Shown here piece after piece: positions 4,501 to 25,941 of a DNA stretch of 64,000 bases. The DNA comes from Planomonospora sp. ID67723 (GTDB taxonomy: Bacteria > Actinomycetota > Actinomycetes > Streptosporangiales > Streptosporangiaceae), in the NCBI RefSeq assembly GCF_015711605.1, contig NZ_JABTEZ010000002.1:744001-808000 (forward strand), given 5' to 3'. The notes under the pieces were generated by a model. The model saw only the letters and a list, made by a program, of their open reading frames with translations, made no database searches and was not told the origin of the DNA. A program made the position numbers and the translations under genes. Within the stretch, counting starts at the first letter, position 1, and each line of letters begins with the position of its first letter.

Positions 4501-5346
4501 TCAGTGGTAGCTGTGCTCGGGGGTCGGGAAGGCCCCGCCGGCGACCTCGTCGGCGAAGGCGCGTACCGCCCGGTCCATCTCCTCGGCCAGGTTGGAGTAC
4601 TTCTTGACGAACTTGGCCGGGCGCTCGGTGAGGCCCATGAGGTCCTGCCAGACGAGGACCTGGGCGTCGGTGGACGGACCGGCGCCGATTCCGATCGTCG
4701 GGATCGACAGGGAGGTGGTGACCCGCTCGGCGAGGTCGGCCGGGACGCACTCCAGGACGACGGAGAAGGCGCCCGCCGCCTCCAGGTCCTTGGCGTCGGC
4801 CATCAGCTCGTCGCCGGACTGGCCGCGGCCCTGGACCCGGTAGCCGCCGAAGGCGTTGACCGACTGCGGGGTCAGGCCCAGGTGGGCCATGACCGGGATG
4901 CCGGCCGAGACGAGGGCCTCGACCTGGGGGAGCACCCGGCGACCGCCCTCCAGCTTGACCGCGTGGGCGCCCGCCTCCTTCATGAACCGCACGGCCGTCT
5001 CCAGGGCCTGCTGGGGGGAGGCCTGGTAGGAGCCGAACGGCAGGTCGGCCACGACCAGGGCGCGGGAGGAGCCCCGCACCACGGCCGCGGTCAGCGGCAT
5101 GAGGTCGTCGACGGAGACGGGCAGCGTCGAGTCGTATCCGTAGACCACCATGGCCGCCGAGTCACCGACGAGCAGGACCGGGATCCCGGCCTCGTCGAAG
5201 ATCCTGGCGGTCATCGCGTCGTACGCGGTGACCATCGGCCACCTCTCGCCCCGCTCCTTGGCGGCGGCGATGTCGCGCACGGTGATCCTTCGCCCTGCCT
5301 GGCCGCCGTAGAGAGCAGTCGGCCGACTGGTGACGGAAGAGGACAT
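4501..5346 (-). CDS. panB: 3-methyl-2-oxobutanoate hydroxymethyltransferase (ketopantoate hydroxymethyltransferase)
   Basis: A 281-residue cytosolic enzyme that transfers a hydroxymethyl group from methylene-tetrahydrofolate to 2-oxoisovalerate, the first committed step to pantothenate and CoA. The TIM-barrel signatures are present: [28 protein letters not shown] with a metal-binding Asp, [20 protein letters not shown] and [15 protein letters not shown]. The ATG at 5346 is set by GGAGGG about 8 bases upstream; the open frame continues upstream but is not coding. It is divergent from the MFS gene at 5506. In M. tuberculosis panB lies close to glnA2, and here it sits on the same side of glnA2 but separated by an insertion of about 23 kb. 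Confidence 0.97.
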
Positions 5347-5505
5347 GGGAACCCTCCAGAGTCTCGAGGCGCCCCTGTGGCGTCCCCGGACGGTTCTGAT
5401 GATGGCATGCGTTCGCCTGGTTAAACACCCCCCGATCCGCAGGTAATCCGGTGGCGGGGTTGTCGGCGCCATACGCCACAATGCGAGAGGAGGTAAGTAA
5501 TAAAA

Positions 5506-6708
5506 ATGGCTATCGAACCTTACCGTCGGCTGCTGGCCCTTCCGGGCGTGCGGACGCTGCTGCTGGTGGGCCTGCTCGCGCGGATCCCGTCCACCGCGGT
5601 GGGCCTCACACTGACCCTGCATATCAGGGGTCTCGGCCTGGGGTGGTTCGAGGCGGGCGCGGTCGGCACCGCGACCACGGTGGGCATGGCCGTCGGCTCG
5701 CCGCTGGCCGGAAGGTTCGTCGATCGGTACGGCCTCCGGCCGGTGCTGCTGGTGACCGGTGCCGCGCAGCTCGTCTTCTGGACCTCCGCCTGGGCGCTGC
5801 CGTACCTCGCGCTGGTCGTCGCCTCGGTGGCGGCGGGTCTGCTGGCTCTGCCGGTGTTCGGCGTGATCCGGCAGTGCCTGGCCGCCGTGGTCCCGGTGGA
5901 GCAGCGCAGGACCGGTTTCTCCCTCGACTCGATGCTGGTCGAGCTGGCCTACATGACCGGGCCCGCGTTCGCCGCGGCCGGCACGGTGGCGCTCGGGAGC
6001 ACATGGACGATGTGCCTGGTCGCGGTCGGCCTGGCCGGTTCCGCCGCGGCGCTGATCCTGCTGGACCCGCCCGTCCGCTCCGACGAGGAGGAGGAGCGCC
6101 CGGAGAAGAGGGTCCCGAGGGGCGAGTGGCTGACCCCGGGCCTCGTCACCCTGCTCGGCACCGCCTCGGCGGCGACCTTCGTGCTGATCGCCACCGAGCT
6201 CTCCCTCGTCGCGACGATGGAGCGCACCGGGGACACGGCCTGGATCGGCGTGGCGATCGGGGGGTGGTGCCTCTACTCGCTGATCGGCGGTTTCGTGTAC
6301 GGCGGACTGTCGCGCGGATTCTCCCCGCTGGTCCTCATCGGGGCCATGGGCCTGTTCACCGTCCCGGTCGGCCTGGTCGGCCTGGTCGGAGGCGGCTGGG
6401 GGTGGCTGGTCGCGGCCCTGATCCCGGCCGGGGTGCTGTGCGCTCCGGGGCTCTCCTCCACGGTGGAGGCGGTGAGCCGCCGGGTCCCCGCCGGGGCCAG
6501 GGGTGAGGCCATGGGCCTGCACGGCACCGCGCTGCTGGTCGGCGGCGCGCTCGCGGCGCCGGTCGCCGGAGCGGTCATCGACGGCGCCGGCCCCGGCTGG
6601 GTGTTCGTGACGGCGGGGCTGGTGAGCGTGGTGATGGTGCTGGTCGCCCTGCCGTTCTGGCGCAGGAGCGCCTCCCGGGCCGAGGCGCCCCAGCCGGTCG
6701 CGGTCTGA
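5506..6708 (+). CDS. MFS transporter, 12-TM type
   Basis: A 400-residue hydrophobic protein with about 12 membrane segments in two halves and a charged central loop near residues 190-205 ([17 protein letters not shown]). The cytoplasmic loop [14 protein letters not shown] near residue 70 matches MFS motif A. No substrate can be read from the sequence; it looks like a drug/metabolite efflux-type MFS (DHA1-like). A strong GAGAGGAGG Shine-Dalgarno lies 12 bases before the ATG, inside a locally AT-rich leader (GTAAGTAATAAAA) that is unusual for this DNA. It stands alone, divergent from panB. Confidence 0.85.
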
Positions 6709-12975: not shown

Positions 12976-13550
12976 TTGAGGCCGTGGGATCCTCCGTACG
13001 CCGAAGCCCGGTCCAGCAGCGCAGCGTGGAGCGGGTGAACCAGATGCTCGACGCGGCCGCCGCCCTGCTCGACGAGGGCGGCTACGACGCGCTGAGCACC
13101 CGCGCGGTGGCGGTCCGCGCCGGGGTGCCGATCGGTTCGATCTACCACTTCTTCCGCGACAAGCGCGGCCTGGCCGACGCCCTGGCCCAGCGCAACCTGG
13201 AGCGCTTCCTGGCCGGGGTCGAGCGGCGGCTGGACGGCGTGACGCATTGGCCGGTCATGGTGGATCTGGTCGTGGACGAGTACGTCGAGATGAAGCGCAC
13301 CGTCCCGGGCTTCGCGGTCCTGGACTTCGGAGAGAACCGGGTGGTCGCCGAGTCCCTGGCGGCCTACCTCGCCCAGCGCATCGCCCCGGTCGACGCGGCC
13401 GGCCTGACCCGCCCCATGCTGGTCGCCGTCGAGGCCGCCGACGCCCTCCTCAAGCTCGCCTTCCGCGAGTCCCCCGCGGGCGACCCTTTCTACATCGACC
13501 AGACCAAGGAACTCCTCCGCGCCTACCTGGAGCGCGCCCTGCCCCACTGA
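12972..13550 (+). CDS. TetR family regulator of beta-helix operon
   Basis: 192 residues. The helix-turn-helix spans about residues 20-65 (LDEGGYDALSTRAVAVRAGVPIGSIYHFFRDKRGLADAL), and the C-terminal half is a helical ligand/dimer domain. The ATG at 12972 overlaps the stop of the membrane protein gene (ATGA), making it the last gene of the operon starting at 9111. It probably autoregulates the operon through the GAACA-T-TGTTC palindrome at 9088-9098. The ligand is unknown. Confidence 0.9.
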   Translation: MIEAVGSSVRRSPVQQRSVERVNQMLDAAAALLDEGGYDALSTRAVAVRAGVPIGSIYHFFRDKRGLADALAQRNLERFLAGVERRLDGVTHWPVMVDLVVDEYVEMKRTVPGFAVLDFGENRVVAESLAAYLAQRIAPVDAAGLTRPMLVAVEAADALLKLAFRESPAGDPFYIDQTKELLRAYLERALPH

Positions 13551-13658
13551 ACGCGCAGCGCGACCTGCCGCACGCCTCGCCGGGCTGGACGTCGGAGGTG
13601 TGCACGGGCAGGGTGAGGTCGAGCCCGGCGTCAGGGAGCCGGTGACCGAGGCATAACC

Positions 13659-13690
13659 AGGCAGGCCCCCGTCGCAGGGGTGGTCTGCCT
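13659..13690 (+). terminator. Nested stem-loop after the beta-helix operon
   Basis: AGGCAG pairs with CTGCCT on the outside and CCCC with GGGG inside, about 110 bp after the TetR stop and 60 bp before the next gene. The rest of the 199-bp gap shows no gene. Confidence 0.45.
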
Positions 13691-13749
13691 CCAGCCGGAT
13701 CGCGGGTCTGCCCGATGGCGGTCACGACCGCCGAACCGAGAATGGAGAC

Positions 13750-15822
13750 ATGCGGCTTCTCCTCACGGCTCTTGCGGCGCTCGGCGGGTGCGCGGTCATG
13801 CTGGCTGTCGCAATCGCGCTGGCCACCGACCGTCCGTCCCTGGCCGGCTGGGTCCTGTCGGGGCCGTTCCCGATGTACGCCGTGGGCGTGGCGGCCTTCC
13901 TGTGCCGGCCCGGCAACCCGGCGGTGCGCTGGCTGCTCGCCACTGGGACCATGTTCGCCCTTGAGACATGCCTGGGCGATGTCGTGCTGCCCCTCATCGC
14001 CGGCTGGCCGCCCGTATGGATCCTGGCGCTGGTCCGTCAGTGGGCGGGTACGGCCAGCGTGATGGCCATGATGGGATTCATCGGGCTCTTCCCCGTGGGC
14101 CGTGCAGAACGCCCGTTCGAACGGTTCGTCATCCGGGCCCTGGCGGCCCTGGCCGTGCTGGTTCCGGTGCTCAACGCGCTGTCGGACCACACCCTGGCGC
14201 GGGGGATGTACCCCAGCGCGTACCCGGTCTTCCTCAGCCCCCTCTTCGTCGAGGCGCTCGCCCCGCTGGGGCCCGCGACCGTCCTGCTGTACCAGGGCTT
14301 CCCGCTGTGGATCATGCTCGGTTTCCTCCTGCTGGCCGCACGCTACCGGCGGGCCCCGTCCGACCAGCGCCGCAAGATCAGATGGCTGCTCTTCGGCAAT
14401 GTCGCCGCGGCCGTCTTGTGGATCCCGCAGTTCCTCGTCGTCTGGCTGGCCGGGGAGAACTCGGCGGCATACCTGGTGATCGACGCCGTCAGCTGGCCGA
14501 TGACGGTGATCATCGTGCTCGGCTCGACGCTCGTGGCGCTGTTCCACGAGGGGGTCTTCGGCATCGACCGCCCGGCCCGGCGCTCGCTCGTCTACCGCCT
14601 GCTGTGGTCGCTGATCACGGTGGGCTACGTCGGCGTCGCCACCGGTCTGGGCATCCTGGCCAACTGGTATTTGCCGGCCGGCGTCGCGGTGCTGCTGACG
14701 ATCTGCATGACCCTCCTGCTCCAGCCGGTGCGCGGGCGGCTGGAGCAGTTGGCCGACAGATGGGTCTTCGGCGCCCGGCTCGACGGCTACCGGCTGCTCA
14801 GCCGGTTCGGCGCGGTGCTGGAGAAGTCACCCGGCCCGGCCACGCTGCTGCAGGAACTGGCCGAGACCGTGCGCCGGGGGCTGAACCTGACCTGGGCCCG
14901 GGTCCGTCTCGACCCGGACATCGCCCATGCCGGGGGCGCGCAGGGGATCGGCGTCGGGGAGCGGGCGGACCCGGCGCTGGTGGTCCCCATCACCCACGGC
15001 CAGAAGGTGCTGGGCAGCATCGAGTGCGGTCCCCGGCGGGACGGCCCGCTCCTGAAGGAGGACCGCCGCCTCCTGGGCTACCTCGCCGGTCAGGCGGCGG
15101 CCGTCGTGCACAACATCCATCTCACCGCCGAGCTGTCCGCGCAGCTCCTGCTGATCCGGCGGCAGGCCGCCGAGCTGGCCGCCTCCCGGGAACGGGTCGC
15201 CCAGGGCCAGGACGCCGAGCGCCGCCGCATCCAGCGCGACCTGCACGACGGCGTGCAGCAGGAGGTGGTGGCACTGACCGCCAAGCTGGGACTGGTCCGC
15301 CAGCGGCTGCGGCGCGGTGACCCGCGAGCCGAGCAGGACCTGACCGAGCTCCACGGGGACCTGGGCACGCTCCTGAACGGCCTGCGCGAGTTCGCGTACA
15401 CGATCCATCCGCCGGTCCTCAGCGACCGGGGACTGCTGGAGGCGGTCGAGGCCCAGGCCGCCCGCCTTCCCGTATTGATGGAGGTCAGGGCCGACCCGGT
15501 GCTGCGGGGCACGCGCTTCCCCTCCCACATCGAGGCCACCGCCTGGTACGCGGTGGCCGAAGCCCTGTCCAACGCGGTCAAGCACGCCGACGCGACCCGG
15601 GTGGAGGTCTCACTCCGGCAGGCCGATCACCGGCTGGTGCTGGCGGTCCGCGACGACGGCCGGGGATTCGACCCGGAGGCCGCCCGCGGGCTGGGACTGA
15701 CCGGGCTCGCCGACCGGTTGGACATCGCCGGCGGCACCCTGCAGGTGCACAGCGCCTCCGGCGCGGGCACCGAACTGTGCATGGAGATCCCGCTGACCCA
15801 CCCGGAGGCCGCAGATGCCTGA
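13750..15822 (+). CDS. Membrane sensor histidine kinase, NarL/DesK type (HisKA_3)
   Basis: 690 residues. About eight to ten membrane helices occupy residues 1-330, followed by a GAF-like region (about 350-450), a coiled coil (LSAQLLLIRRQAAELAASRERV), the HisKA_3 dimerisation helix with phospho-acceptor H499 in QRDLHDGVQQEV, and a HATPase_c domain with the N-box near ALSNAVKHADA and G-box DDGRGFD. It should phosphorylate the response regulator whose gene overlaps its 3' end by 8 bp. The signal is unknown; the many membrane helices and short loops suggest a membrane-state or hydrophobic signal. Confidence 0.92.
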   Translation: MRLLLTALAALGGCAVMLAVAIALATDRPSLAGWVLSGPFPMYAVGVAAFLCRPGNPAVRWLLATGTMFALETCLGDVVLPLIAGWPPVWILALVRQWAGTASVMAMMGFIGLFPVGRAERPFERFVIRALAALAVLVPVLNALSDHTLARGMYPSAYPVFLSPLFVEALAPLGPATVLLYQGFPLWIMLGFLLLAARYRRAPSDQRRKIRWLLFGNVAAAVLWIPQFLVVWLAGENSAAYLVIDAVSWPMTVIIVLGSTLVALFHEGVFGIDRPARRSLVYRLLWSLITVGYVGVATGLGILANWYLPAGVAVLLTICMTLLLQPVRGRLEQLADRWVFGARLDGYRLLSRFGAVLEKSPGPATLLQELAETVRRGLNLTWARVRLDPDIAHAGGAQGIGVGERADPALVVPITHGQKVLGSIECGPRRDGPLLKEDRRLLGYLAGQAAAVVHNIHLTAELSAQLLLIRRQAAELAASRERVAQGQDAERRRIQRDLHDGVQQEVVALTAKLGLVRQRLRRGDPRAEQDLTELHGDLGTLLNGLREFAYTIHPPVLSDRGLLEAVEAQAARLPVLMEVRADPVLRGTRFPSHIEATAWYAVAEALSNAVKHADATRVEVSLRQADHRLVLAVRDDGRGFDPEAARGLGLTGLADRLDIAGGTLQVHSASGAGTELCMEIPLTHPEAADA

Positions 15823-18553: not shown

Positions 18554-20095
18554 CTACCCCCGGAACCAGGCGCTGCTCGCCGGGGCCACCGCCCCGGCCC
18601 GCACGTCGGCGGAGGCGAGCACCGGGGTGCCCCATTCCACCGGGTACGGCTCGTCGCCGAAGACGGTCACGCAGATCATCTCCCCGCGGCGGAAGGCCAG
18701 CACGTCCTGCCTGCCGGTGGGCAGCCACTCCAGCGGGCCGTCGAAACCGGGGCGCATGCCAAGCGCGTCGCGGTGCAGGGACCAGGTCGAGCCGGGGCGG
18801 GCCGTCTGGTCCTCGATCGCGAACGCCCCGAACCAGTCCGGCTGCGGCAGCCAGGTCCGCGCTGAGGGGGAGAAACCGAACGAGGGGCCGGTGGGGGTCC
18901 ACGGCAGCGGCACCCGGCAGCCGTCTCGGCCGTGCTCGGTCCTCCCCGAGCGGAACCAGGTGGGGTCCTGGCGGGCCTCGTCCGGCAGGTCCATGACCTC
19001 CGGCAGCCCGGCCTCCTCGCCCTGGTAGAGGTAGACCGAGCCGGGCAGGGCCAGCACCAGCATCATCGCGGCGCGCGCCCGCCGTACGCCCAGCTCGACG
19101 TCGACCACGCCGCGGGGCCGGGTGTCCGGGCCGCCGGTGCGGGAGACCAGGCCGAAGCGGCTGACCGTCCGGTGCACGTCGTGGTTGGCGAGCGTCCAGG
19201 TGATCACCGCGCCGGTGGAGACGATCTCCTCCAGGCCCCGGTCGATGGAGGCGCGGAAGCGGGAGGCGTCCCAGGGGCAGACCAGCAGGTCGAAGTAGAA
19301 CGCCTGCTGGAGCTCGTCGGGACGCAGGTAGAGGGCCAGGTCGCCCACCGTCGGCACCCAGATCTCGCCGACGAGCGTGCGCTCGCGGGCGTCGGCGAGC
19401 TTGCGCCACCGGCGCAGCACCTCGTGCACCTCCGGCTGGTTCTGCGCCAGGATGTTGTACTCCGGGTGGTGCGGCCAGTCGGGCAGGTCGGCGTGCTTGA
19501 ACAGCATGTGCACCACGTCGATGCGGAAGCCGTCCACACCCCGGTCGAACCAGAAGCGCAGCACGTCCTCGAAGTAGGCGCCGACCTCGGGGTTGCGCCA
19601 GTTGAAGTCGGGCTGGCCGGGGTCGAAGCTGTGCAGGTACCACTCGTCGCCCACCCGGGTCCAGGCGGAGCCGCCGAAGACCGAGCGCCAGTTGTTGGGC
19701 GGCTCGTCGCCCCGCCCGGGGCGGAAGATGAAGCGCTCCCGCGCCGGGCGGTCACCGGCCAGCGCGGCCTGGAACCACGGGTGCTCCACCGAGCAGTGGT
19801 TGGGCACCAGGTCCATGAACACCTTCAGCCCGCGCGCGTGGGCGTCGGCCAGCAGCCGGTCGAAGGCGGGCAGGCCGCCGTAGCGCGTGTCGACGTCCAT
19901 GTAGTCGGCCACGTCGTAGCCGTGGTCGGCGCCGGGCGAGGGGTAGCACGGGTTGAGCCAGATCCCGTCGACGCCCAGCTCGACCAGGTAGTCCAGGCGG
20001 GTGCGCAGCCCGTCCAGGTCGCCGACGCCGTCGCCGTCGGAGTCGGCGAACGAGCGCAGGTACACCTGGTAGACGACGGCGTCACGCCACCACAT
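18554..20095 (-). CDS. Glycoside hydrolase family 13 alpha-glucosidase-like enzyme
   Basis: 513 residues without a signal peptide, so cytosolic. All GH13 regions are present: DLVPNHCS (region I), the nucleophile D193 in VDGFRIDVVHM, the acid/base E244 in LVGEIWVP and D306 in TLANHDVHR. The N-terminus MWWRDAVVYQVYLRSFADSDGDGVGDL is typical of oligo-1,6-/alpha-glucosidases acting on short maltodextrins, trehalose-like or sucrose-like sugars. The ATG at 20095 is set by GGGGGAGGAA about 5 bases upstream. It lies between nadE and the kinase/SARP cluster on the same strand. The exact linkage specificity is not readable. Confidence 0.92.
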   Translation of the reverse strand: MWWRDAVVYQVYLRSFADSDGDGVGDLDGLRTRLDYLVELGVDGIWLNPCYPSPGADHGYDVADYMDVDTRYGGLPAFDRLLADAHARGLKVFMDLVPNHCSVEHPWFQAALAGDRPARERFIFRPGRGDEPPNNWRSVFGGSAWTRVGDEWYLHSFDPGQPDFNWRNPEVGAYFEDVLRFWFDRGVDGFRIDVVHMLFKHADLPDWPHHPEYNILAQNQPEVHEVLRRWRKLADARERTLVGEIWVPTVGDLALYLRPDELQQAFYFDLLVCPWDASRFRASIDRGLEEIVSTGAVITWTLANHDVHRTVSRFGLVSRTGGPDTRPRGVVDVELGVRRARAAMMLVLALPGSVYLYQGEEAGLPEVMDLPDEARQDPTWFRSGRTEHGRDGCRVPLPWTPTGPSFGFSPSARTWLPQPDWFGAFAIEDQTARPGSTWSLHRDALGMRPGFDGPLEWLPTGRQDVLAFRRGEMICVTVFGDEPYPVEWGTPVLASADVRAGAVAPASSAWFRG

Positions 20096-20157
20096 CGGTT
20101 CCTCCCCCGGCGAGTCCGGATCTGTCCGCTGGGGTTCCTCCCCAAAGATCCCGGATG

Positions 20158-22320
20158 CTATCCGCCGAGGGGGAGGACGGCCTCCACCGCCGTGCCGCCG
20201 CCGGGCACCGGTCCCACCGCGCACGTCCCGCCCAGCTCGGTGGCGCGCTCGCGCATCGAGATCAGGCCGATCCCGGACCTGGCCCCCGCGGGCAGCCCGC
20301 GCCCGTCGTCGGTGACGCGGACCGTGAGCGAGGAGTCCTCGCGCCGCAGGGCGACCGTCGCCGAGCGGGCCCCCGCGTGCTTGCGGACATTGGTGAGCGC
20401 CTCCTGCGCGATCCGGTAGGCGGCCACCTCGGCCGCCGCGGGCAGGTCGGAGAGGTCTCCGGAGGCCTCCACCGCGACCGGGAGCCCGCCCTCGGCCGCC
20501 AGCGCCCGTACGGCCCCCGCCAGGCCGAGCTCGTCCAGGGTGGGCGGGCGCAGGCCGTACACCAGCTCCCTGATCTCCTGGCTGACCGAGTCCATCCCGG
20601 CACGCAGGCCGAGCAGGAGCCGGTCGGCCGAGGCCGGGGCGGTGCGCAGGCTGATCCGGGCCATGTTGATCGACATCGCCATGTCGGCCAGCGCGTGGCC
20701 CAGCCCGTCGTGCAGATCCCGGCGCAGGCGGCGGCGCTCCTCCTCGCGGGCGGTCAGGATGCGCTCGCGGGAGCGCTGCAGGTCGGCGGTCATCCGTATG
20801 GCGTGCACCACGTCGGCCACGTACGGCGCGACCACGGCGATCAGCCGGTCGTTGTAGGCCGCGGCGAACCTGCGCGGCCCGGGAGCGCCGAGCAGCAGGC
20901 GGCCGACCGGTTCGCCGTGCCAGACCAGCCGGACCACCCGCGGGCCCGGTCCCAGCCGGCCGAGCTCCACCCGCCGGGCGCCGGGATCGTCCACCTCGAC
21001 CGCGACCCCGGTGACGCCGAGCCCGTCGCGGATCGCGGCGGCGACGGCGGCCAGCGCGCCCGCGGGCTCGGCCTCGCCGACCTCGCGGGCCAGCCGGGCG
21101 GCCAGGAGGGCCGGGTCGCCGTGCGTGCCGTACATGAGCCGGTCGACCAGGCGCCGCAGCCGGTCGCGGAGCGGCTGGAAGAAGACCCCGGCGGCCAGGG
21201 CGGCGACCAGGCCGCCGACCCGGTCGTAGCCCGACAGGACCAGCCCGGCCAGCGTGCCCGCGCCGAAGTAGACCACGCTGACCGCGGCGAGCAGCCCGGC
21301 GGCCACGAAGGCGCGGCTGATCACGGTGTCGATGCCGTACAGCCGGTAGCGCAGCGCGGCGAAGACGAGGGTCACCGGGATGAGACCGGTCCAGATCGCG
21401 GCGGGCAGCCACAGCTCCGCGCCGGCGACGAGGAAGACGATGTAGCCCGCGAAGGCCGACAGCGGCCAGGCGACCTGGCGGCGTCCCGCCGCGTCGGCCC
21501 GGCGGAAGCGCACGACCTGCGATGCCATCGCCGTGACCACGAAGAGGACGATGACGGTGAAGAGGGTCATGTGCACCGCGGAGTAGGAGGACGGCGCGAG
21601 CACCTCCACCGCGAGCGGGTTGGGGATCACCCGCGGCCAGGGATACCCCTCCGGCGGCGGCGTCGGGCGGATGACCACGAGCGCCGTCTGCGCGACCGCC
21701 ACGGCCGAGGCCGCCACCACGATCGGTCGCCAGCGTGCCGACGGCAGGCGGCCGTCGGGGGAGTAGAGAGGGAGCAGGACGGCGAGCAGCAGGGCGCCGA
21801 CGTGCAGGCCCGCGGCCGTGACCCAGGTCAGATACCCCGCGGCGGTGAGATCCCCCGCGGAGGCGCAGGAGAGCATCAGGGCACGGCAGAAGACGCGGAC
21901 CGCGCAGCCCAGCCCGCCCGCGCACATCAGCCAGCCGGTGATCGCGGGCGCCCGGTTGACCAGCAGGAACACCCCCGCCAGGGGGAAGGCCAGCCCCGCC
22001 GCGTGATCGGGCAGGGCGGGGACCTCCGGTACCCATCCGGGCGGGAGCCGCAGGCCCAGGACGAGGCTCGCGGCGGTGAGCAGCACGGAGACCAGGGCCG
22101 TCACGGCGGCGAGGATCCCCGGAGGAGAGGCGAGGAACGCGGCCGTCGCGCTCGGGCGCGGGGCGCCGAAGTCGCCGTCGTCCACCGGCCCGGCCGCATC
22201 GTCCGCGGGGGTTCCACCCGCCGCGTCCGGGCCGCGCTCCGGGTGCCCCGCTCCATCCGGGCTCTCCGCGCCCGCCCCGCCGGAAGCGGCGTGGCCGTGG
22301 TCCCCCGCCTGCAGGTACAT
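20158..22320 (-). CDS. Membrane sensor histidine kinase A of the SARP/receiver cluster
   Basis: 720 residues. A disordered hydrophilic N-terminus (1-50, rich in G, A, D, P) precedes about ten membrane helices (50-390), a degenerate GAF-like segment, the HisKA_3 motif with H537 in RRDLHDGLGHAL, and a HATPase_c domain (EALTNVRKHAG, DDGRGLP, GIGLISMRERA). It starts 2 bp after the stop of the SARP/receiver gene, so they are co-transcribed and coupled, and that protein is its likely partner. It is a clear paralogue of the kinase at 23884-25941, sharing for example VWHGEPVG, TAREEERRRLRRDLHDGLG and YGLRPPTLDELGLAGAV. The signal is unknown. Confidence 0.9.
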   Translation of the reverse strand: MYLQAGDHGHAASGGAGAESPDGAGHPERGPDAAGGTPADDAAGPVDDGDFGAPRPSATAAFLASPPGILAAVTALVSVLLTAASLVLGLRLPPGWVPEVPALPDHAAGLAFPLAGVFLLVNRAPAITGWLMCAGGLGCAVRVFCRALMLSCASAGDLTAAGYLTWVTAAGLHVGALLLAVLLPLYSPDGRLPSARWRPIVVAASAVAVAQTALVVIRPTPPPEGYPWPRVIPNPLAVEVLAPSSYSAVHMTLFTVIVLFVVTAMASQVVRFRRADAAGRRQVAWPLSAFAGYIVFLVAGAELWLPAAIWTGLIPVTLVFAALRYRLYGIDTVISRAFVAAGLLAAVSVVYFGAGTLAGLVLSGYDRVGGLVAALAAGVFFQPLRDRLRRLVDRLMYGTHGDPALLAARLAREVGEAEPAGALAAVAAAIRDGLGVTGVAVEVDDPGARRVELGRLGPGPRVVRLVWHGEPVGRLLLGAPGPRRFAAAYNDRLIAVVAPYVADVVHAIRMTADLQRSRERILTAREEERRRLRRDLHDGLGHALADMAMSINMARISLRTAPASADRLLLGLRAGMDSVSQEIRELVYGLRPPTLDELGLAGAVRALAAEGGLPVAVEASGDLSDLPAAAEVAAYRIAQEALTNVRKHAGARSATVALRREDSSLTVRVTDDGRGLPAGARSGIGLISMRERATELGGTCAVGPVPGGGTAVEAVLPLGG

Positions 22321-22322
22321 CG

Positions 22323-23804
22323 TTATCTGCCCGTGTCGCCCGGGTTCACCAGGCCCGACTCGTACGCCGCGACGACGAGCTGCGCGCGGTCGAACAGGCC
22401 GAGATGGTCCAGGAGCCTGCTCACCGACCCGGCCACGTCCTGCTCGGGCACCGCGAGGGTGGCCGCGATCTGCCGGTTGGTGAGCCCTCGGGCGACCAGC
22501 TTCAGCAGGTCCAGCTCGGCGTCGCCGAGACCGGCGAGGGCGGGCGGGGCCGTGGGGTCGGTGCGCCCGGCGAAGGCCGAGATGAGCCGCGTGGTGACGG
22601 CCGGGTCGATCAGCGCGTCCCCGGCCTGCGCGGCGCGCATCGCGCTGATCAGTTGCTCGGGCGCGGAGGTCTTGAGCACGAAGCCGCTCACCCCCGCCCG
22701 CAGCGCCGAGTAGAGGTTGTCGTCGGTGCCGAACGTGGTCATCATGATCACCTTGGGCGGGTCCCGGTCGGCGAGGATCCGCCGCGCGGCGGTCAGGCCG
22801 TCCAGCCGGGGCATCTGGATGTCCATCAGCACCAGGTCGGGACGGGTCTCGCGGACGAGCGCGATCGCCTGCTCGCCGTCCTCCGCCTCTCCGGCCAGCT
22901 GGAAGCCGGGCTCGCTGTCCAGCACCACCCGCAGCCCGGTGCGGACCAGGGCCTGGTCGTCGACCACGACGACGCGCAGCGCCGGTTCCCCGGCTGCGGG
23001 ACTTCCCGCCGGGGGCGTCCCGGCCGGGAGCACGGTGACCGGTCTCTCCTTGGGCGGGTCCAGGTGGGGAGCCTGGGACAGCATGTCGGACTCCAGGCGC
23101 TGCAGGGTGGCGCCGAGGTCCAGGCCCAGCTCGTCGCGGAGCACGGCCCTGGCGCGGCGGAGCGCTCCCAGCGCGTCGCCCTGCCTGCCGCCCCGGTAGA
23201 GGGAGAGCGACAGCAGCCGCCAGCCCTCCTCGCGGAGCGGGTGGGCCGAGACGTGCGCCTCCAGGTCCGCGACCAGCGCCGAGGACTGGCCGAGTGCGAG
23301 CCCGGCGTCGGCGCGGCGCTCGATCGCGGTCAGCCGGAGCTCCTCCAGCCGCCCGGCCTCGGTCACCGCCCACGACAGATCGGAGAACTCCGCCAGCGCG
23401 GGTCCCCGCCACAGCGCGAGCGCCTCCTCCATGCGCTCCCACACCGCGGCCGGCCCGCCCTCCATCTTGACCGCGTTCTCGAACCGCCAGGAGTCCACCT
23501 GGCCGGTCTCGGCGCGCAGCGCGTACCCGGGCGGGGCCGAGACCAGCACCTCCGCCTCCTCGCGAGGCGCGCGGCCCGGTTCCAGCGCGCGCCGCAACCG
23601 CGAGACGTATCCCTGGATGGTGGACAGGGCCTGGGCCGGGGGCTCGCCCGGCCAGAGCTCGTCGATGAGCACGCTCACCGGGACGGCCCGTCCCCCGGCC
23701 ACCAGGAGCCGGGCCAGCACCGCCATCTGGCGTTGACCGCCGAGGTCGAGCACCACGTCACCGTGGCGCGCCTGGAACGGTCCTAGGGTGCGGAATGTCA
23801 ACAT
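22323..23804 (-). CDS. SARP (winged helix + BTAD) fused to a receiver and LuxR helix-turn-helix
   Basis: 493 residues with four domains: a winged helix (1-90, LTFRTLGPFQARHGDVVLDLGG then DELWPGEPPAQALSTIQGYVSRLRRAL), a BTAD all-helical domain (about 95-245), a proline-rich linker, a receiver (about 270-390: VVVDDQALVRTGLR, phospho-acceptor D328 in LVLMDIQMP, TTFG, VLKTSAP), and a C-terminal LuxR/NarL helix-turn-helix (about 425-493, ARGLTNRQIAATLAVPEQDV). SARPs usually end after BTAD or carry NB-ARC/TPR, and NarL regulators have one DNA-binding domain; this one has two. The ATG at 23804 gives the normal SARP start and has TACTCT ten bases upstream; an in-frame ATG at 23849 is possible. It is flanked by two paralogous kinases. 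Confidence 0.92.
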   Translation of the reverse strand: MLTFRTLGPFQARHGDVVLDLGGQRQMAVLARLLVAGGRAVPVSVLIDELWPGEPPAQALSTIQGYVSRLRRALEPGRAPREEAEVLVSAPPGYALRAETGQVDSWRFENAVKMEGGPAAVWERMEEALALWRGPALAEFSDLSWAVTEAGRLEELRLTAIERRADAGLALGQSSALVADLEAHVSAHPLREEGWRLLSLSLYRGGRQGDALGALRRARAVLRDELGLDLGATLQRLESDMLSQAPHLDPPKERPVTVLPAGTPPAGSPAAGEPALRVVVVDDQALVRTGLRVVLDSEPGFQLAGEAEDGEQAIALVRETRPDLVLMDIQMPRLDGLTAARRILADRDPPKVIMMTTFGTDDNLYSALRAGVSGFVLKTSAPEQLISAMRAAQAGDALIDPAVTTRLISAFAGRTDPTAPPALAGLGDAELDLLKLVARGLTNRQIAATLAVPEQDVAGSVSRLLDHLGLFDRAQLVVAAYESGLVNPGDTGR

Positions 23805-23883
23805 TGCAGCTGTAAGAGTACGGCTACCTGGACTGACGTCATACGGCAACGTTCACCATCGTTCGCTCGCAGGGGGAAACGGG

Positions 23884-25941
23884 TCACCGGCAGGGCTCCG
23901 TGTCCAAGGTCAGCGGCAGCACCGCCTCGACCACCGTGCCGCCCTCGGGAGGCGATGTGATCATGCAGGTGCCACCGAGTTCGGCGGCGCGCTCGCGCAT
24001 CGAGGCCAGCCCCACCCCGGCCCGCCTGCCGGGCGGGACGCCGGAGCCGTCGTCGCTCACCCGGACGCGCAGGTGCCCGCCGTCCGGGTGCCCGCCGTCG
24101 GGGCGGCGGCCGCGCTCCAGCCGGACCCGTACGGAGCCCGCCCCCGAGTGCTTGCGCGCGTTGGTCAGCGCCTCCTGCACGATCCGGTAGGCGGCCACCT
24201 CGGCGGCGGCGGGCAGGCCGGTGAGATCGCCGCTCACCTCGACCGCGACGGCGGGCCCGGCCATCTCCCCGACCGCCCCGGCCAGGCCGAGGTCGTCCAG
24301 GGCCGGGGGGCGCAGGCCGTACACCAGGTGCCTGATGTCACCGGTCACGCTGTCCATGCCGGCGCGCAGGCCGTCGAGCAGCAGCTCGGCGTTCTCCGGG
24401 GAGACGTGCAGGGAACGCCGGGCCGCGTTGATGGACATGGCCATGCCGCTGAGCGACTGGCCGAGGCCGTCGTGCAGGTCGCGGCGGAGGCGGCGGCGCT
24501 CCTCCTCGCGGGTGGCGATGATCCGCTCGCGGGAGCGGCGCAGCGCGCCGACGAGCCGGACCGCGTGGGCGGCGTCGGCGATGTACGGCGTGAGCGCGGC
24601 GATGACCCGCTCGTTGTGCGCCGCGGGCAGCCGCCGGGCGCCCGGAGGGCCGATGAGCAGGTGGCCGACCGGCTCGCCGTGCCAGACCAGGGGGACCTCG
24701 CGGGCCACCTCGCCGAGTTCGCCCGACAGCGTCCGGCCGGGCCACTCCCCGAAGGGCGCGGCGGCGGACGGTCCCGGCGGCTCGGTGAACCGCACGGCCA
24801 CCCCCGTGACGGAGAGCCCCTCACGCAGCACCTCCAGGGCCGCGGGCAGGCCCTCGGCGGGGTCGGTCCGCTGCAGCCGCCGCCGCAGCTCGCCGGCCAG
24901 CGCCACCGGGTCGCCCCTGCTGCCGTAGAGCAGCCGGTCGGCACCGCGCTGCAGCACCCTGCGGAGCGGATGGAAGAAGACGCCGGCGCAGAGCGCGGCG
25001 AGCAGTCCGCCGATCTGGTCGAGGTCCGACAGCAGCAGGCTGAAGGCGGCGCCCACTCCCACGTAGACGCCGCCGATGACGCCGACGAGGCCGGCGCCGA
25101 CCAGCGCCCGGGTGATCAGCGTGTCGATCTCGTAGAGCCCGTGCCGCAGGATCGCAAACGCGATCGCGGCCGGGATGAGCGGGATGGTGAACGAGGCCAG
25201 CCACCAGACGTGGCCGCCCATCACCCACGGGACGATCAGGCCCGCGAACGCGAACAGGGGCCAGACGATCTGGTGCCTGCCGACCGGGTCGGCGCGGCGG
25301 AAGCGCACCGCCAGGGAGACGAACGCCAGTCCCATCGCCACCGCGGTCAGCCGGTGCAGGTTCTCCCTGAGAGCCGGGGGCGGTGCCGCCCCTCCCAGGA
25401 GGACGAGCATCGAGCGCAGGCCCTCCAGCCCCTGCACCAGGCAGGCGAAGACGACCAGCGCGCGCCACCGGGGCGAGGGCAGGCGGCCGGTCGGGTAGAG
25501 CAGGGGCAGCAGCACGCCCAGCAGGAGCGTGGCCAGGGCCCAGCTCTGCCCGACGGCCACCCACAGCAGCTTGGGCGCGCCGACGGCGTAGGGGGTGGGG
25601 GCCTGCAGCAGGGCGAGGTTGGCCGCCAGGATGTTGACCGCGCAGGCCAGGCCGCCGCCCAGCAGCACCCAGCCGATGAGCAGCCGCGGCCTGCGGAGGA
25701 TCAGCAGCGCCCCGAAGATCGGGAAGGCGGTCCCCGCCATGTCCTCGGGCGCGAAGGGCAGCGGCGTGTACTTCGACGGCGGCAGCATGGCGGTCACCAC
25801 GATGTCCGCGCACTCCATCGCCAGGGAGAGCGCGGCGATCAGCACGCCCGCCAGGCGCAGGCGCCCGTGCGTCACCGCGGGAGGGCCTCCCGGTTTCCGG
25901 GGGAGACCTCCCGGTCCGAGCCGGTCCGGTTCGCGCGTCAC
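23884..25941 (-). CDS. Membrane sensor histidine kinase B of the SARP/receiver cluster
   Basis: 685 residues starting at a GTG with a good GGAGGG Shine-Dalgarno. About ten membrane helices fill residues 25-330, followed by a GAF-like region, HisKA_3 with H490 in RRDLHDGLGQSL, and HATPase_c (EALTNARKHSG, DDGSGVPPG, GVGLASMRERAAEL). Near the end the sequence PDGGHPDGGHL is a small in-frame duplication. It is paralogous to the kinase at 20158-22320 and precedes the SARP/receiver gene by 79 bp on the same strand. Both kinases may feed one regulator, or they may heterodimerise; this is inference. Its promoter carries three 11-bp-phased heptads. Confidence 0.9.
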   Translation of the reverse strand: MTREPDRLGPGGLPRKPGGPPAVTHGRLRLAGVLIAALSLAMECADIVVTAMLPPSKYTPLPFAPEDMAGTAFPIFGALLILRRPRLLIGWVLLGGGLACAVNILAANLALLQAPTPYAVGAPKLLWVAVGQSWALATLLLGVLLPLLYPTGRLPSPRWRALVVFACLVQGLEGLRSMLVLLGGAAPPPALRENLHRLTAVAMGLAFVSLAVRFRRADPVGRHQIVWPLFAFAGLIVPWVMGGHVWWLASFTIPLIPAAIAFAILRHGLYEIDTLITRALVGAGLVGVIGGVYVGVGAAFSLLLSDLDQIGGLLAALCAGVFFHPLRRVLQRGADRLLYGSRGDPVALAGELRRRLQRTDPAEGLPAALEVLREGLSVTGVAVRFTEPPGPSAAAPFGEWPGRTLSGELGEVAREVPLVWHGEPVGHLLIGPPGARRLPAAHNERVIAALTPYIADAAHAVRLVGALRRSRERIIATREEERRRLRRDLHDGLGQSLSGMAMSINAARRSLHVSPENAELLLDGLRAGMDSVTGDIRHLVYGLRPPALDDLGLAGAVGEMAGPAVAVEVSGDLTGLPAAAEVAAYRIVQEALTNARKHSGAGSVRVRLERGRRPDGGHPDGGHLRVRVSDDGSGVPPGRRAGVGLASMRERAAELGGTCMITSPPEGGTVVEAVLPLTLDTEPCR

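Follow-up and report, generated by a model that had tools for sequence, protein, structure and literature searches.

SARPs are activators that usually turn on antibiotic genes. AfsR, the medium and large SARPs and the SARP-LAL proteins share a plan in which an OmpR-type winged helix and a BTAD domain are followed by an added C-terminal module. EmbR, which is fed by Ser/Thr kinases, likewise has a C-terminal domain linked to phosphorylation. In the available part of PMC10936776, the NOD and TPR domains of AfsR are described as inhibitory, phosphorylation of AfsR by a Ser/Thr kinase as having little effect on activation, and EmbR as carrying an FHA domain; the available part of a 2024 review lists NB-ARC, TPR and LAL forms among the SARP classes, and the word “receiver” is absent from that main text (PMC10972967). 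The regulator analysed here has the same N-terminal plan, and AfsR chains match its residues 2-270, but, unlike in AfsR-type SARPs, its C-terminal module consists of a receiver and a degenerate LuxR head, so that it carries a two-component receiver where EmbR carries an FHA domain. In both sequence and fold, the best match of the SARP half is EmbR (2fez).

A receiver is also combined with BTAD in a group of response regulators in which, to our knowledge, the receiver comes first and there is no LuxR head. The accessible part of a survey of biosynthetic clusters puts BTAD at 0.6% of the response regulators found there (PMC10663231). The other half of the regulator, residues 276-486, matches VraR, LiaR and NarL in sequence and, by Foldseek, in fold. 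With respect to gene arrangement, a described precedent is AbrC1/AbrC2/AbrC3 of Streptomyces coelicolor, in which two histidine kinases accompany one response regulator; this likeness concerns arrangement, and AbrC3 is not described as a SARP fusion in the abstract of PMC4428217.

Here, we describe a locus in Planomonospora sp. ID67723, contained in a stretch of 64,000 nucleotides (hereafter, the window), where a SARP-receiver-LuxR fusion lies between two histidine kinases. From comparison of sequences across related genomes, the regulator is probably a SARP in which phosphorylation of D328 controls DNA binding or activity, with the LuxR module retained for dimerisation or restraint.

Architecture and distribution of the regulator

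The features of the locus, in window coordinates, are the following.

20158..22320, minus strand: kinase A, 720 aa, with 7 hydrophobic segments, HisKA_3 with H537, and HATPase_c (Pfam)
22323..23804, minus strand: SARP-receiver-LuxR fusion regulator, 493 aa, ATG at 23804 and stop at 22323 (Pfam)
22347..22535, minus strand: LuxR/NarL-type four-helix domain, residues 424-486 (Pfam GerE, alignment, AlphaFold2)
22401-22445, minus strand: LuxR recognition helix, residues 454-468, with the conserved lysine and histidine gone
22629..22979, minus strand: receiver domain, residues 276-392 (Pfam), with the D328 codon at 22821-22823
23085..23498, minus strand: BTAD activation domain, residues 103-240 (Pfam)
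23514..23804, minus strand: SARP winged helix, residues 1-97 (Pfam and AfsR alignment)
23815..23820, minus strand: -10-like hexamer TAnnnT, 10 nt before the regulator ATG
23884..25941, minus strand: kinase B, 685 aa, with 7 hydrophobic segments, HisKA_3 with H490, and HATPase_c (Pfam)

The domain composition given in the preliminary description, a 493-residue protein joining SARP winged helix, BTAD, a receiver with D328 and a LuxR domain, is borne out by Pfam, which finds BTAD (E 3e-35, residues 103-240), Response_reg (4e-27, residues 278-389), Trans_reg_C (1e-06, residues 24-95) and GerE (6e-06, residues 429-480), all four above the curated cut-offs. The N-terminal order, an OmpR-type winged helix (Trans_reg_C) followed by BTAD, is that of SARPs. 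In the AlphaFold2 model (mean pLDDT 81, pTM 0.49), all four helices of the LuxR domain are retained; given the pTM, the model is silent on how the domains pack against each other. The reading frames also reproduce the coordinates and spacings described previously: along the minus strand, kinase B comes first, the regulator begins 79 bp after it, and kinase A follows the regulator at a distance of 2 bp. Most relatives of kinase A, however, align only from about residue 20-80 onward, which leaves both its start codon and the 2-bp coupling in doubt.

When 345 genomes of the order were searched, 109 of them, spread over 19 of 70 genera, gave a match to the regulator, as did 95 of the 297 genomes in the family sample. 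A single full-length match was obtained in 103 of the 109 order genomes (in one of them, G026, with a TGA inside the match), and four more gave two pieces of one open frame; in the remaining two, the match was split over two contigs or cut by a contig edge. A frameshift or assembly artefact that would separate the two halves of the protein is therefore rejected by the single open frame in 107 of 109 matching genomes, and the fusion is genuine. Whole-protein matches include Planomonospora (93% to P. venezuelensis), Planobispora, Streptosporangium, Microbispora, Acrocarpospora, Herbidospora and Nonomuraea.

In wider sampling, 14 of 394 genomes in the class sample matched at a strict cut-off, 13 over the full length, all from the window's own family, and one in the SARP half. 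Among 246 genomes sampled from the phylum, 11 matched, with the window's own genome giving the sole full-length match. Within the reach of these searches, the architecture appears to be confined to the window's family, one of soil actinomycetes; independent origins outside it were sought and none was seen in the class and phylum samples, at cut-offs strict enough for diverged independent fusions to escape. Among 1881 matching plasmid records, two cover at least 80% of the query: one is a chromosome-sized Nonomuraea record (74%), and the other is the plasmid of Streptomyces sp. NBC_00316 (L208:3781-9368), on which a histidine kinase, a response regulator and a BTAD regulator are encoded side by side, each by a gene of its own.

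The regulator can be viewed as a variant combining known kinds of protein in an architecture for which we found no description in the open-licence literature searched, including the available parts of PMC10663231, PMC10972967 and PMC12692060, where no SARP-receiver-LuxR protein appears.

The two DNA-binding-like ends compared

To the regulator, the preliminary description attributed two DNA-binding domains. We compared the LuxR recognition helix of 47 fusions (the window and loci L014-L059) with two sets of NarL-type regulators: 31 control orthologues of the fusion's closest paralogue in the window's genome, itself a NarL-type regulator of ordinary build (the query and 30 loci; 30 of 31 genomes searched gave a match), and 40 paralogues of NarL type encoded in that genome. 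The recognition-helix positions compared are those that contact DNA in NarL, and the LuxR part of the fusions is alignable to VraR and LiaR. The closest paralogue is 59-61% identical; by eye, its gene follows a Ser/Thr protein kinase-like gene (L094:3089-4687, 5123-5785), and the 11.5 kb fetched around it contains no match to kinases A or B.

The recognition-helix signature of NarL/FixJ proteins (T, K/R, H) is absent from the fusions (n=47). T456 is present in two of the 47 fusions, compared with all 31 control orthologues and 39 of the 40 paralogues; K/R458 in none, compared with 31/31 and 39/40; and H460 in none, compared with 31/31 and 35/40. An acidic residue at 456, 458, 459 or 460 occurs in 35/47 fusions, 0/31 orthologues and 0/40 paralogues, and over a wider set of seven positions in 39/47, 0/31 and 5/40, respectively. 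The mean net charge of the helix is -1.96 in the fusions, where it never exceeds 0, and +2.06 and +1.85 in the orthologues and paralogues. The contrast between sets in all these features is partly one of rate, because the control orthologues evolve more slowly than the fusions. Within the LuxR domain of the fusions, where rate does not affect the comparison, mean entropy is 2.27 bits over nine DNA-face positions and 0.09 over fourteen core positions; hence, the fold is apparently under selection and the face is not. The deepest row, L057, differs from the other 46 in still having an R-E pair at 429-430, which suggests that the DNA-reading face was lost stepwise.

The SARP end presents the opposite picture. 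Its recognition helix (residues 59-74) is nearly invariant, with a mean entropy of 0.10. Using the list of AfsR contacts given in the available part of PMC10936776, we found the equivalents of W74, P79, Q81, S91, R92 and R94 identical in 47/47 fusions; K95 corresponds to R in 46/47 and D71 to D in 45/47. At other contacts the fusions depart from AfsR: all 47 have G, R, A, Q and G where AfsR has S46, Q48, R59, R87 and T88, 45/47 have G in place of E76, and the residues opposite E68 and E77 are variable. Its DNA site may differ from that of AfsR, as may some of the contact with polymerase.

These comparisons bear on the proposal that two sensors feed a regulator binding DNA at both ends, its LuxR head having acquired new, lineage-specific sequence preferences. 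The fold is indeed kept, as indicated by a GerE match above cut-off, four modelled helices and a conserved core, but altered specificity would be expected to retain phosphate contacts, and the fusions depart from NarL/VraR-type regulators, apart from their N-terminal SARP head, in having neither K/R458 nor H460 in any of the 47, acidic residues in most, and a recognition helix of net negative charge. We accordingly judge dual DNA binding very unlikely, and this part of the preliminary description is not supported. Because the LuxR end is devoid of the residues expected to touch DNA, the regulator probably reads DNA with one of its two DNA-binding-like ends, the SARP end; this is the best-supported step of the mechanism we propose.

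Receiver, kinases and genomic context

The receiver was described as complete, and it keeps the five active-site residues compared: the acidic pair (D282, D283), the phospho-acceptor aspartate (D328), the Thr/Ser position (T356) and the lysine (K378) are invariant in 47/47 fusions, including four loci without an adjacent kinase, and the conservation extends to the fusion itself.

Kinases A and B of the window are 49% identical over 670 columns and both contain HisKA_3 and HATPase_c, in agreement with the description of a paralogous kinase on each side. In the kinase tree, A forms a group of 47 rows (SH-aLRT 93) and B a group of 30 rows (SH-aLRT 87), each spanning several genera. The arrangement around the regulator varies among loci L014-L059. 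Kinases flank the regulator in 8/46 loci, with B upstream and A downstream in all 8 (in one, L018, the downstream kinase is cut by a contig end). In another 8/46, there is A downstream only, and in 3/46, B upstream only. An A-type kinase lies directly upstream in 22/46, accompanied by a B type farther upstream in 16 (for 15 of these B kinases, the sensor part begins before the fetched stretch), by a second A type in one (L029), and by no other kinase in five. No adjacent kinase is found in 4/46 (L041, L049, L056, L057), and in L016 a contig end prevents the arrangement from being read. Thus, of the idea that two sensors serve one regulator, the existence of two kinase lineages in many genera holds up, but the placement of one on each side is found in only those 8 loci; two kinase genes linked to one regulator, as in AbrC, occur in the window, and both types are present inside the fetched locus in 24/46.

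Beside the regulators of G298 and G305, too, no kinase was found. The genomes of L041, L049 and L057, and G298, each encode one kinase elsewhere that is 53-55% identical to B and 56-57% identical to A and groups with A in the tree; no NarL-type regulator gene was found in the stretches fetched around these distant kinases, which in the L049 genome end with the contig about 260 bases beyond the kinase. In the L056 genome there is a kinase fragment where a contig breaks off, besides a weaker kinase that is accompanied by a separate regulator, and no kinase match was obtained in the G305 genome, which is 63% complete.

The neighbours of the regulator include glutamine synthetase-like, ArsR-like and MFS transporter genes, 0-2 kinases and, downstream, NAD synthase (nadE), which is present in 45/46 loci, the exception, L018, being cut by a contig end. 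Three genomes from genera that otherwise carry the regulator (G005, G069, G023) have none, and their MFS gene directly precedes nadE (L177-L179), which looks like loss. In the stretches fetched from eight other genomes (L180-L187), there is no SARP match; in one of them, a receiver-HTH match of 36% lies past the glutamine synthetase gene. In the window, kinase A and nadE are separated by an alpha-amylase family gene (18554-20110), for which, among the loci listed, L014, L015 and L016 alone gave a match.

In Nonomuraea corallina (L061, 6001-9222), the place of the regulator is occupied by a 1073-residue protein whose residues 1-140 are 75-100% identical, per 20-residue block, to the fusion of N. 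harbinensis, dropping to 40-50% over residues 141-240, with a breakpoint near residue 140. Beyond its SARP head, this protein has AAA and TPR domains, with NB-ARC just below the cut-off, so the head seems to have recombined onto an AfsR-like ATPase-TPR module.

That the same SARP head can sit on such a module instead of a receiver, and that regulators without an adjacent kinase exist at the four loci and in G298 and G305, is what one would expect if the receiver were mainly structural, the true input something else and the kinases chance neighbours. The invariance of the receiver active site in all 47 fusions speaks against this explanation, as do the A-clade kinases that G298 and three of the four genomes without an adjacent kinase encode elsewhere, with no NarL-type regulator in the stretches fetched around them. 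We consider a mainly structural receiver improbable and favour a phosphorylatable one.

The upstream DNA offers a possible reason for this mobility of the kinases. A TAnnnT hexamer ends 7-10 nt before the regulator ATG in 46/46 sequences (the window and L014-L058); when the test position was moved 30, 60, 90 and 120 nt farther up, the counts were 2, 0, 0 and 0. None of four Shine-Dalgarno-like 4-mers was found before the ATG in these 46 sequences. We infer that the regulator has its own near-leaderless promoter, independent of the upstream kinase. Of the direct repeats that SARPs bind, sought at 11-nt spacing upstream of the regulator in 12 sequences, none recurs. By eye, most rows of Planomonospora, Planobispora and Streptosporangium share a well-conserved block before the regulator, at window positions 23838-23866, which Thermocatellispora and Spongiactinospora keep in part and which is not evident in other genera; it is a possible binding site.

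Under the phosphorylation-gated reading, kinases A and B, or whichever of them a genome keeps, adjacent or distant, would autophosphorylate and hand the phosphate on to D328. In response, the receiver together with the leftover LuxR module would dimerise or release the SARP head, which would bind near a promoter and contact RNA polymerase as AfsR does, DNA being read only by the SARP end. With a near-leaderless promoter of its own, the regulator could stay in place while the kinases move. Its foremost candidate targets would be nadE and the MFS gene.

A divided kinase pair in two Nonomuraea

Two Nonomuraea genomes, G283 and G312, carry a kinase-regulator-kinase cassette at another place in the genome; their cassette regulators lie outside the 47 fusions, and the full-length tree places them, on a long branch, with Nonomuraea (support 99). 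In both cassettes, the kinase preceding the regulator can be aligned to B only from around residue 310 of the latter onward, keeping the phospho-acceptor histidine and HATPase and lacking the N-terminal sensor, and the kinase after the regulator is A-like, keeping the membrane segments and a DHp-like coil and lacking both histidine and HATPase. Since the catalytic-only kinase forms a long branch outside both groups (outside A, support 96) and is only slightly nearer B than A, its B label is provisional. Between the two genomes, dN/dS is 0.32 for the sensor-only kinase (523 codons), 0.39 for the catalytic-only kinase (376 codons) and 0.25 for the regulator (506 codons, stop to stop), with 0.51 for the DHp-like tail alone. 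Both divided kinases look maintained by purifying selection, with pooled values that are also compatible with slow decay.

This natural split gives a hint that the two kinases work together as a single heteromer, with a sensor arm and a catalytic arm, an extension that is compatible with the phosphorylation-gated SARP and which we hold tentatively, as a possibility somewhat short of probable. The division of sensing and catalysis between two proteins, the dN/dS of both parts and the span of each lineage over several genera are consistent with it. However, G283 and G312 are the only known cases of the split: 42 of 54 Nonomuraea genomes match the sensor-only kinase, and the other 40 all have open frames of at least 684 residues (kinase motifs among these were examined in G298). 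The sensor-only protein could instead be an inhibitor, the DHp-like tail being the part for which slow decay is most easily accommodated, and the provisional label of its partner weakens the case for an A-B pair. Moreover, loci with A downstream only, with a lone A upstream or two A types (6/46), or with a lone B do not provide both arms beside the regulator.

In both genomes, the cassette sits inside a lanthipeptide-type cluster. At the G283 locus (L188:758-6179, 13342-15639) lie genes for a lanthipeptide synthetase of the RamC type, for a P450 and for a protein with a nitric oxide synthase domain, all of which are matched in G312 (L189), together with a second P450-like gene. Between the synthetase and the P450 lies a 32-residue peptide, identical in G283 and G312, which we take to resemble class III lanthipeptide precursors and which is a candidate precursor. 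The cassette may control this cluster. A more elaborate scenario, in which an obligate or preferred kinase heteromer phosphorylates the SARP, the NarL head, stripped of DNA reading, is reused as a phosphorylation-driven dimeriser, and the fully split kinase controls the lanthipeptide-type cluster in some Nonomuraea, strikes us as rather doubtful when taken as a whole.

A built-in receiver would let a single aspartate set the on-state of a SARP. The family is also a case in which a response regulator has had one DNA-binding end displaced by another. The two species in which sensing and catalysis are divided across a kinase pair provide natural parts for testing kinase heteromers, and the regulator family may offer a handle on silent biosynthetic clusters in Nonomuraea.
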